Of a stretch of 64,000 nt of DNA, positions 56,705 through 59,238 are shown piece by piece. The translations under genes were made by a program, and so were the position numbers. The stretch is taken from positions 1 to 64,000 of the forward strand of contig CAIVHB010000084.1 of assembly GCA_903905585.1 (NCBI GenBank), given 5' to 3'. Below the pieces are notes generated by a model, which made no database searches, was not told where the DNA came from, and was given only the letters and a program-made list of their open reading frames with translations. The stretch is from an uncultured Ferrovum sp. Its GTDB lineage: Bacteria; Pseudomonadota; Gammaproteobacteria; Burkholderiales; Ferrovaceae. How positions within the stretch are numbered: position 1 is the first letter of the stretch; every line of letters begins with the position of its first letter.

Positions 56705-57386
56705 TTTCGTTCCTATGATTGAGATAAGCGCCTTGACGCGCCGCTACCCTGATGGCCGAGAGGTCTTGCGGGGGATTGATTTGCGGATTCAGGCCGGAGA
56801 AATGCTGTTTTTAGGTGGCCCCTCGGGGGCCGGAAAAACTACGCTGCTTCGTCTAATCGCAGGAATTGATCGTCCCACCAGCGGTGAGATCAAATTGAAT
56901 GGGCAACCATTGAGTCGACTCAGTTCGCCAGCCTTAGAGGCTTTGCGCAAAAACATTGGGATGGTGTTTCAAGAACATAAATTATTGCTAGATCGCTCAG
57001 TTGAGCAAAACGCTGCTTTGCCGCTTCAAATTCAGGGCTTGGCTGGCGCAGAAATACACAAGCGCGTCGCTGCCGCCCTAGAGCGAGTGGGATTGGGTGG
57101 ACGTGCTAACGACTCCCCTTTGGCCTTATCAGGTGGCGAACGGCAAAGACTTTGTATAGCACGTGCCTTAGTAGGTAAACCTGCCTTAATTGTAGCCGAC
57201 GAGCCTACGGGCAACTTAGATACCGAATACGGAGAAGCCATCCTAACCTTGTTCCGCTCTTTTCATTTAGCGGGTGTCACTCTGGTCATCGCGACCCACG
57301 ATGAGCGTTTAGTGCAAAGTCTAGAGGGGCGTTTAGTGCATCTAGACCAGGGCAGAGTTATTAGCGATGGAAGAACAATCTCATGA
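56697..57386 (+). CDS. ftsE: Cell division ATP-binding protein FtsE
   Basis: ABC ATPase that with FtsX regulates septal peptidoglycan hydrolases. The 229-residue protein has Walker A GPSGAGKT (41-48), the signature LSGGERQR, Walker B LIVADEPTGNLD and the H-loop ATHDERL. I keep the TTG at 56697 because a full GGAGG (56686-56690) lies 6 bases upstream. The ATG at 56715 would match E. coli's N-terminus better but is 24 bases from that site. Confidence 0.93.
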   Translation: MTDFVPMIEISALTRRYPDGREVLRGIDLRIQAGEMLFLGGPSGAGKTTLLRLIAGIDRPTSGEIKLNGQPLSRLSSPALEALRKNIGMVFQEHKLLLDRSVEQNAALPLQIQGLAGAEIHKRVAAALERVGLGGRANDSPLALSGGERQRLCIARALVGKPALIVADEPTGNLDTEYGEAILTLFRSFHLAGVTLVIATHDERLVQSLEGRLVHLDQGRVISDGRTIS

Positions 57387-58291
57387 GAGGATTTGCAGAA
57401 AGACACGGACATGCCATTGCCTCAGCAGCTCGGCGCTTGATGACTGAGCCTCTCACCAACCTTCTTACAATATTTGTGATCGCTTTATCTTTGGCCGTTC
57501 CTACTTGCTTGTATCGGATTATTTCCGATGCAGCCACCATGGCCAAAGGTCAAGCGGGTCCCCCTGCCATCACCCTGTTCTTCCGACTCGGTGTTCGTGA
57601 AGATCAAATGAGCAAAATCCGGGAGAGTCTGGCTCATCACAAGCAGGTATCAAGCGTAGATTATGTTTCTCCCGAACAAGGATTAAAAGAGTTACAACAT
57701 CGTCTTGGCTCGGACGATGTGCTGACTGGTTTAGACCTCAACCCCTTACCTGCTGCGCTGATCGTGCATGCATCTTCCACCGACCCTGCTGTGCTGTTGG
57801 ACTTACAGAAAGAACTCAGCGCCTCTCCTGCTGTTGATCAAGTGAAGCTCGATGCTGAATGGGCTCGTCGGCTTCATGCCCTTACCCATCTGCTACAAGA
57901 GGCTATCTTGGCACTGGCCTTGATATTTGCTGCAGCAGTCGTGATCGTGGTGATGAATACTGTGCGTTTGCAGGTTACTGCCGCTCGCGAGGAAATTGAG
58001 GTCTGCAAACTCATGGGCGCAAGCGATGCTTTTGTGCGTCGCCCATTTGTCTATTTCGGCATGTTCCAAATGTTTTTTGGGGGGGGGGTTGCTATTGGAA
58101 TGACAGAACTAGCCCGCCTAGCCTTCAACTCCCTCAGCGCGGAATGGCTTGGACCGTATGGCCTGAACTTTCAGGTTCAACCTTTACCCTGGCTACAAGC
58201 AGGTGTTGGATTACTGCTCGCCTTAATTTTAGGCTGGATTGCAGCATCGAGCGCCGTTTCAACCTTTTTATATCGATTAAGGCCGCGCTAA
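57383..58291 (+). CDS. ftsX: Cell division protein FtsX
   Basis: Membrane partner of FtsE, 302 residues with four membrane helices (near 25-45, 170-195, 220-245 and 270-290) and an extracytoplasmic domain between the first two. Family-like features are VSPEQGLKELQHRLG and EIEVCKLMGASDAFVRRPF. The ATG overlaps the ftsE stop (ATGA). Confidence 0.94.
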   Translation: MRGFAERHGHAIASAARRLMTEPLTNLLTIFVIALSLAVPTCLYRIISDAATMAKGQAGPPAITLFFRLGVREDQMSKIRESLAHHKQVSSVDYVSPEQGLKELQHRLGSDDVLTGLDLNPLPAALIVHASSTDPAVLLDLQKELSASPAVDQVKLDAEWARRLHALTHLLQEAILALALIFAAAVVIVVMNTVRLQVTAAREEIEVCKLMGASDAFVRRPFVYFGMFQMFFGGGVAIGMTELARLAFNSLSAEWLGPYGLNFQVQPLPWLQAGVGLLLALILGWIAASSAVSTFLYRLRPR

Positions 58292-58331
58292 CGTTTTACA
58301 CTCCCCTAAAGTTAGAAACTTTTTCGCCGTA

Positions 58332-58358
58332 TTGGCACTCTAATCACTAGAGTGCTAA
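58332..58358 (+). promoter_or_regulatory. CIRCE operator (HrcA-binding site) upstream of rpoH
   Basis: TTGGCACTC (58332-58340), a 9-base spacer, and GAGTGCTAA (58350-58358) match the CIRCE consensus TTAGCACTC-N9-GAGTGCTAA with one mismatch in 18 fixed positions. CIRCE is the binding site of the heat-shock repressor HrcA. It overlaps the likely rpoH promoter. No hrcA gene is in the window. Confidence 0.9.
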
Positions 58359-58361
58359 TAT
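58332..58361 (+). promoter_or_regulatory. Probable sigma-70 promoter of rpoH inside the CIRCE element
   Basis: TTGGCA (58332-58337; 5 of 6 with TTGACA) and TAATAT (58356-58361; 4 of 6 with TATAAT) are 18 bases apart. A transcript would begin near 58368, only a few bases before the GGAGG ribosome binding site (58371-58375). HrcA bound to CIRCE would cover both hexamers. Confidence 0.6.
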
Positions 58362-58380
58362 AACGATCATGGAGGTTTCT

Positions 58381-59238
58381 ATGACTACAATGACCCTTCC
58401 CGTTCCATCACTTACTGGCGCAAGTAGCTTAGAAAGCTATATACAGTCAGTCAATCGTATGCCTATGCTCACGGCAGAGGAAGAATTCGCCCTTGGCGAG
58501 CGGCTTCGTACCCAAGGCGATCTGGAAGCCGCACAGAAACTAGTGCTTTCACATTTACGCTTGGTGGTATCGATTTCTCGCCAGTACATTGGCTATGGCC
58601 TTCCTCAGGCCGACCTGATTCAAGAAGGAAACCTTGGCTTGATGAAGGCGGTTCGGCGATTTGATGCCACCCGAGGGGTGAGACTCGTTTCGTTTGCAGT
58701 GCATTGGATTCGCGCTGAAATGCATGAATACGTTGTTCGTAATTGGCGCATGGTGAAGATTGCCACCACCAAGGCCCAGAGAAAACTGTTCTTTAACTTG
58801 CGCAGCATGAAGTCAAGCACCGGAACCCTGAGTGACCGGGATACCCACGAATTTGCCAAGACTTTAGGCGTGAAGCCTGAAGAAGTACGTGAAATGGAAA
58901 TGCGCTTATCCGGTGGTGATGTTTCTCTGGAGGGTGGTCAAGATGAAGAGGAACAGGCTTATTTGAGCCCATTGGCCTACTTAGCTGATGAAGGCGCAGA
59001 ACCCTCTGACATTCTTGAAAATGCCCAGATTGGCCTTTTAGAGACTGAAGGGCTGCAGGATGCCCTTGCTCATTTAGACCCCAGGAGTCGTCGTATTGTT
59101 GAAGCCCGTTGGCTTAAAGAGGACGGGGGATTAACCCTGCATGATTTGGCGGATGAATTTCAGGTGTCCGCTGAGCGTATTAGACAGATTGAACAGAAGG
59201 CATTGGCGACCCTCAAAAAGACGCTAGTGCCGGCTTAG
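58381..59238 (+). CDS. rpoH: RNA polymerase sigma factor RpoH (sigma-32)
   Basis: Heat-shock sigma factor. The 285-residue protein has region 2 (DLIQEGNLGLMKAVRRFD, FAVHWIRAEMHEYVVRNW), the diagnostic RpoH box QRKLFFNLR (133-141) and region 4 (HDLADEFQVSAERIRQIEQKAL). I use the ATG at 58381, 5 bases after GGAGG; an ATG at 58369 overlaps that site. The very short leader implied by the promoter leaves little room for an E. coli-type RNA thermometer. It follows ftsYEX as in many proteobacteria, and its stop overlaps the convergent sco gene by four bases. Confidence 0.96.
   Translation: MTTMTLPVPSLTGASSLESYIQSVNRMPMLTAEEEFALGERLRTQGDLEAAQKLVLSHLRLVVSISRQYIGYGLPQADLIQEGNLGLMKAVRRFDATRGVRLVSFAVHWIRAEMHEYVVRNWRMVKIATTKAQRKLFFNLRSMKSSTGTLSDRDTHEFAKTLGVKPEEVREMEMRLSGGDVSLEGGQDEEEQAYLSPLAYLADEGAEPSDILENAQIGLLETEGLQDALAHLDPRSRRIVEARWLKEDGGLTLHDLADEFQVSAERIRQIEQKALATLKKTLVPA

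Follow-up and report, generated by a model that had tools for sequence, protein, structure and literature searches.

A predicted CIRCE operator merged with promoter sequences upstream of rpoH in an uncultured Ferrovum sp.

The rpoH locus and the predicted HrcA regulon

We analysed a 64,000-nucleotide stretch of DNA (the window), which belongs to a draft genome of 2.29 Mb (contig C84 of G000) from an uncultured Ferrovum sp. and carries rpoH, the gene for the heat-shock sigma factor sigma-32, 89 bases downstream of ftsX (Table 1). The translated product contains the motif QRKLFFNLR, which we take to be the RpoH box, and its nearest relative was found in L002, a MAG labelled uncultured Ferrovum sp. 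(protein identity 94%). A CIRCE element lies inside the ftsX-rpoH gap, and no terminator-like site was found between the two genes. Within ftsX, a run of ten G (58079-58088), the window's sole run of at least nine G or C or at least ten A or T, leaves the frame open and marks a possible slippage or assembly spot.

The CIRCE differed from the consensus TTAGCACTC-N9-GAGTGCTAA at a single one of 18 positions (A3G), and no other match with three or fewer mismatches was found in the 64-kb window (mean in shuffles, 0.02). The element is an inverted repeat, hrcA is present in the same genome, and the site co-occurs with its repressor across genomes, as described below. The original prediction, a CIRCE that matches at all but one of 18 fixed positions and overlaps TTGGCA and TAATAT hexamers, was confirmed, together with the GGAGG that follows it. 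We regard the CIRCE as a confirmed, real sequence element.

Table 1 Positions of the features at the ftsX-rpoH junction of the window
Feature	Position	Strand	Basis
ftsX, neighbour 5' of rpoH	57383..58291	+	TIGR00439 over cut-off
Probable sigma-E -35 GAAACTT, 6/7 to the known GGAACTT	58315..58321	+	GAAC enrichment in order loci
CIRCE (predicted HrcA operator) TTGGCACTCTAATCACTAGAGTGCTAA	58332..58358	+	17/18 matches, spacer 9; conserved at rpoH of relatives
CIRCE left arm TTGGCACTC	58332..58340	+	
CIRCE spacer TAATCACTA	58341..58349	+	
CIRCE right arm GAGTGCTAA	58350..58358	+	
Sigma-70-type -35 TTGGCA, from left CIRCE arm	58332..58337	+	G at position 3 commoner at rpoH than at groES
Probable sigma-E -10 TCTAA, CIRCE positions 8-12, 17 nt past the -35	58339..58343	+	T10/A12 bias
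Extended -10 TGCTAATAT, right CIRCE arm plus three bases	58353..58361	+	TANNNT conservation
Predicted sigma-70 transcript start, leader about 12-15 nt	58366..58369	+	Inferred from -10 position
Shine-Dalgarno GGAGG of rpoH	58371..58375	+	Sequence
rpoH, heat-shock sigma factor sigma-32, 285 aa, ATG at 58381	58381..59238	+	TIGR02392, 380 bits, cut-off 323

The presence of hrcA in the genome, which the original prediction had named as a point to check, was established by matches to PF01628 (E 2e-60) and to the TIGR00331 equivalog (308 bits, cut-off 197). The gene is followed by hemH, grpE, dnaK and dnaJ, all on the same strand (four names assigned by eye after reading the translations); the hemH-like gene (L088:4047-5156) thus sits between hrcA and grpE in a heat-shock cluster. 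The exact core GCACTC-N9-GAGTGC occurred at two places genome-wide, rpoH and groESL, and one-mismatch cores occurred at four further places, which is near background as a control pattern gave five matches. At the second exact site, where groES was confirmed by PF00166 and groEL was named by eye, the CIRCE is perfect and a sigma-32-like promoter lies directly 5' of it. The grpE promoter is likewise sigma-32-like (CTTGAA-N14-CCCCAT; 0.01 expected in 12 kb). From these sites, we predict HrcA repression at rpoH and groESL and transcription of groESL and grpE by sigma-32; dnaK is probably sigma-32-driven as well, judging by a promoter sequence read by eye.

Promoter sequences within the CIRCE

The two ends of the CIRCE coincide with a sigma-70-type promoter. 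The hexamers TTGGCA and TAATAT (58356-58361) are separated by an 18-nt spacer, with TG before the -10 and 9/12 matches overall. Such a match alone is unremarkable, as 0.6 would be expected by chance in the scanned stretch of 601 bases, and the promoter call rests on conservation. Across the rpoH loci of the order sample described below, CIRCE positions 25-30 read TANNNT in 168/172 and TAANNT in 146/172; just beyond the 27-base CIRCE, position 29 was A in 146/172 and position 30 was T in 168/172, compared with T at position 30 in 2/30 groES loci, all of which carry a CIRCE. The A3G mismatch of the window turns the -35 into TTGGCA, a better -35, and G at position 3 was found in 66/172 rpoH sites versus 2/30 at groES. 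The groES loci carried CTTGAAA-like sites at -28 to -32 (27 matches over the 30 loci). The occurrence of this promoter signature at rpoH, and rarely at groESL, suggests that the CIRCE doubles as a promoter at rpoH and hardly ever at groESL.

A second promoter, missed in the original prediction, may run through the same element. The sigma-E consensus is GGAACTT-N16/17-TCNNA, and the window contains GAAACTT-N17-TCTAA (58315-58343), for which a start at about 58350 and a leader of about 31 nt are predicted. Sequences matching GGAACTT at 6/7 positions or better started 16, 17 and 14 bases before the CIRCE in 52, 29 and 17 of 173 loci (window included), while a reversed-motif control reached at most two loci at any offset. 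The shorter motif GAAC was found at -17 to -13 of the CIRCE in 110/171 order loci versus 2-7/171 in eight equal windows upstream, and was missing from the expected place in 61/171; in the class sample, the corresponding counts were 24/38 versus 0 to 4 in other windows. Within the CIRCE spacer, a part expected to vary freely, T stood at position 10 in 117/172 rpoH sites versus 0/30 at groES, and A at position 12 in 106/172 versus 7/30. The A at position 12 was present in 87/110 loci with upstream GAAC versus 18/61 without it (odds ratio 9, p 4e-10; Fisher tests, relatedness ignored), and in the groES control a GGAACTT-like sequence occurred once in 30 loci, at -34. The close relative L002 carries TGAACTT-N17-TCTTA before rpoH, and the same search recovered TGAACTT-N16-TCTGA before E. 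coli rpoH, presumably its P3 promoter. The genome of the window also encodes rpoE (TIGR02939 over cut-off), followed by a probable rseA, whose RseA match fell well short of its cut-off. Together, the spacer bias and the upstream GAAC at rpoH appear to be features that HrcA does not explain.

Genome-wide, the sigma-E pattern gave four matches (two per strand) versus 26 for the reversed control; it was not enriched and was dropped as evidence. A sigma-E-like pair was found in 3/21 upstream regions of hrcA-less genomes and in 2/12 class loci without CIRCE (shuffles, 11/1000), suggesting that the sigma-E promoter generally does not visibly outlive the operator. We are less sure of the sigma-E part than of the HrcA part. 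The promoter first assigned to rpoH held as far as its sigma-70 hexamers went, and it was incomplete in that a probable sigma-E promoter feeds rpoH through the same element.

Co-occurrence of the rpoH CIRCE with hrcA

In the 80 best rpoH relatives, a CIRCE with two or fewer mismatches was found within 300 bases upstream of the gene in 77. One relative, L066, has hrcA and an rpoH site with four mismatches only, and two Nitrosospira multiformis genomes (L052, L057) are counter-examples in which hrcA is present and CIRCE is absent at rpoH. Upstream of rpoH in L052, a sigma-E-like GGAACTT-N16-TCTTA is kept. Unlike N. multiformis, the Nitrosospira MAG L059 carries the rpoH CIRCE.

To avoid choosing relatives by eye, we took a sample of 200 genomes of the order, in which hrcA was found in 178/200 and rpoH scored over cut-off in 197/200. 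The hrcA-positive set came to 172 genomes after setting apart G029 and G044 (both lacking an rpoH that passed the cut-off), G108 and G167 (unretrieved), G000 (the genome of the window) and G083, which has a weak hrcA match (E 1.5e-10) and no CIRCE at rpoH and was moved to the hrcA-less table. The hrcA-less set comprised 22 genomes, including G184 and G187, whose membership was deduced, and G121, which has no rpoH over cut-off. The results showed a CIRCE with four or fewer mismatches upstream of rpoH in 172/173 hrcA-positive loci (172 genomes) and in 0/21 hrcA-less genomes with rpoH, where the best sites had 5 to 9 mismatches; shuffled upstream regions contained such a site in 10/3920 cases. 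By mismatch count from 0 to 4, the 172 CIRCEs fell into 73, 60, 31, 5 and 3 loci. The remaining locus (L219 in G169) has perfect CIRCE arms and a 10-base spacer; GCACTC-N9-GAGTGCTA is matched nowhere in this genome, so another spacing may be favoured by the HrcA it encodes. Another genome, G046, has two rpoH copies (L245 and L254), each with a CIRCE of its own (one and two mismatches).

A genome-wide scan for GCACTC-N9-GAGTGCTA gave matches in 175/200 order genomes and, anywhere in the hrcA-less genomes, in 0/22; the other genomes without a match were G029, G135 and G169. The hrcA-less genomes belong to nine families, of which f4, f24, f31, f34 and f50 also hold hrcA-positive genomes with an rpoH CIRCE, so several of the hrcA losses were likely independent. 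A Ferrovum MAG outside the sample (G205, locus L107) has a perfect rpoH CIRCE and no hrcA was found in it, which may reflect an incomplete assembly.

Outside the order, an rpoH CIRCE with three or fewer mismatches was found in 38/50 class members, a count that scores CIRCE alone, regardless of hrcA status. This sample comprised one genome per family; apart from the genome of the window, 60 had rpoH over cut-off, and the count covers 50 of these, the other ten having low scores. One class locus, L373 (G215), carries tandem CIRCE-like elements, TTAGCAGTC-N9-GAGTGCTAA and TTAGCACTC-N9-GAGTGCTAA, 5 bases apart, with AAT after each. Upstream of E. coli K-12 rpoH, no CIRCE was found (best site, 7 mismatches), and a search of the E. 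coli control genome for HrcA found no match. The original prediction had suspected HrcA sites near rpoH in some other betaproteobacteria and had proposed comparing the upstream regions of relatives; the comparison bore this out, and the site extends beyond the betaproteobacteria.

The fate of the operator was followed in the 6/21 hrcA-less upstream regions from families with hrcA-positive members, of which two aligned to the CIRCE site without gaps (G180, TTGGCA-N18-TAGAAT; G033, ATAGCA-N18-TAAAAT) and one with a 1-base deletion (G160, TTGGCA-N17-TACTAT); G112, G176 and G052 gave no clean alignment. In G180 and G033, 4/7 operator-only positions (7-9, 19-21 and 24) had changed in each, and the hexamers remained, versus operator-only mismatches in 12/1204 cells at hrcA-positive sites. 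A sigma-E-like pair is kept in G033 (GGAACTT-N16-TCATA) and in G112 (TGAACTT-N16-TCTTA). This small natural experiment would fit the expectation that HrcA was the sole reason for the dyad.

Proposed control of rpoH and comparison with known systems

We consider it fairly probable, from sequence and conservation, that 58315-58361 is a composite promoter-operator at which HrcA gates transcription of rpoH by both sigma-70 and sigma-E; that HrcA controls rpoH in one way or another is highly probable. Transcription of rpoH could start from the sigma-70 promoter TTGGCA-N18-TAATAT, with its extended -10, or from the sigma-E promoter GAAACTT-N17-TCTAA, and HrcA bound to the CIRCE would lie over the two sigma-70 hexamers as well as the sigma-E -10 and would block either promoter. 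In other bacteria, as known from Bacillus, HrcA depends on GroEL for its activity. With GroEL engaged by misfolded protein, HrcA would become inactive and rpoH would be derepressed; groESL, grpE and probably dnaK would then be transcribed by sigma-32, with groESL also directly derepressed, until restored GroEL re-arms HrcA and rpoH is shut again. For this scheme we infer HrcA binding, repression, the transcript starts and GroEL dependence at rpoH. The original prediction that sigma-32 is placed under HrcA, joining the two circuits, is well supported by comparison, from the tracking of hrcA and from the groESL CIRCE with its sigma-32-type promoter, N. multiformis being the exception.

The evidence was weighed against four other readings. 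HrcA may repress rpoH through the sigma-70 promoter alone, the GAAC/TCNNA pair not being a working sigma-E promoter here. This is consistent with a window -35 of GAAACTT rather than GGAACTT, with the loci that lack GAAC, with the few sigma-E-like pairs in hrcA-less genomes and with the lack of genome-wide enrichment; however, the enrichment of GAAC at a fixed position, its association with A12 (an estimate that ignores relatedness), the TGAACTT-N17-TCTTA of L002 and the presence of rpoE argue against it, and we find it doubtful. Our confidence in the composite promoter-operator is nevertheless lowered by the scarcity of hrcA-less sigma-E pairs and by the share that this sigma-70-only arrangement retains. 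That the CIRCE is a chance palindrome or relic of promoter hexamers without a repressor role might be suggested by its ends, which double as hexamers, but the near-absence of operator-only mismatches with hrcA, the changes at both gap-free hrcA-less sites and the census of 172/173 versus 0/21 make this extremely improbable. It is also very unlikely that rpoH is transcribed mainly by read-through from ftsEX or from an unseen promoter, with the CIRCE minor or acting as a roadblock: read-through across the 89-base gap, which has no terminator-like site, could bypass the promoters, yet promoter bases in or beside the CIRCE are conserved in 168/172 loci and are readable in 3/6 hrcA-less sites.

The last reading makes an RNA thermometer of the E. 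coli type, placed in the 5' coding region, the chief sensor of heat and gives HrcA a secondary role; it seems unlikely to us. The original prediction had seen little room for a thermometer, and the short leader on which it drew agrees with our prediction for the window. In 135 order loci, whose start codons were set by an approximate rule, the start codon followed the CIRCE at a median distance of 32 (range 21-160) and the predicted sigma-70 leader had a median of 23 nt, with 20 nt or less in 44%; short leaders are common. A thermometer of the E. coli type is compatible with so short a leader, because the E. coli rpoH thermometer lies mostly within the coding region. Whole folds were slightly more stable than synonymous shuffles in every third of these loci (45/135; mean z -0.67, 36% below -1), which favours a thermometer; the E. 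coli fold was more stable than shuffled (z -1.9), and the fold of the window gave z -0.6 and +0.6 in two tests. Against it, the start region was more open than shuffled in the window (z -2.1) and in the 45 loci (mean z -0.8), a comparison with a weak E. coli control (z +0.55). A 7-bp hairpin at 58367-58384 (about -6 kcal/mol at 37 C) covers the Shine-Dalgarno and ATG of rpoH in the window and would fit a thermometer; it was not counted as one, as similar sequence was seen only in L002 among nine relatives compared (the region was misplaced in L266 and L268). An Rfam search over 58250-58700 gave no match near a gathering score, and a sub-threshold match to a microRNA family (23 bits, gathering score 100) was rejected.

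The composite promoter-operator shares its operator consensus and repressor family with the CIRCE/HrcA control of groESL and dnaK in Bacillus and many Proteobacteria. It differs in that the groESL CIRCE sits downstream of a sigma-32-type promoter, whereas the rpoH CIRCE lies inside the promoters and its target is itself a heat-shock regulator. E. coli rpoH has sigma-70 promoters, the sigma-E promoter P3 and a known thermometer; it shares the upstream sigma-E pattern (TGAACTT-N16-TCTGA) and differs in having no CIRCE, with no HrcA match in the genome. A survey by Permina and Gelfand reportedly covers, by its title, HrcA sites including those of betaproteobacteria, and may include rpoH. A CIRCE at rpoH has a precedent in Geobacter sulfurreducens: in the accessible part of a study of that species, TTAGCACTC-N9-GAGTGCTAA at -51 of rpoH was described and HrcA control predicted (PMC545781). 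It is a Deltaproteobacterium, and overlapping sigma-70 and sigma-E promoters or a census of hrcA are not mentioned in this part of the text (PMC545781). Within the accessible parts of PMC3135505, PMC1978210, PMC10490939, PMC545781 and PMC11764788, a CIRCE at rpoH was reported in PMC545781 only. In the open literature searched, we met no description of the fusion of CIRCE with a sigma-E promoter or of the near-complete dependence on hrcA, although either may still be published.

The 47-bp arrangement of CIRCE, extended -10 sigma-70 promoter and sigma-E -10 could be the ancestral rpoH switch of Beta- and Gammaproteobacteria, in which HrcA, and so GroEL capacity, would veto housekeeping and envelope-stress input, the HrcA-free thermometer control of E. 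coli being derived after loss of hrcA; we give this proposal an even chance. Activation by sigma-32 and repression by HrcA, the two classic heat-shock circuits of bacteria, are commonly presented as alternatives. Here they would be linked in series: HrcA would act on a sigma factor whose targets include the chaperones that HrcA itself senses, and input from the envelope-stress sigma factor would probably pass the same HrcA gate. The layout gives testable predictions in easily grown relatives. As it tracks hrcA across the order sample and is found in many class families, the E. coli scheme appears not to be general, and the textbook E. coli wiring, without HrcA at rpoH, may be the exception.
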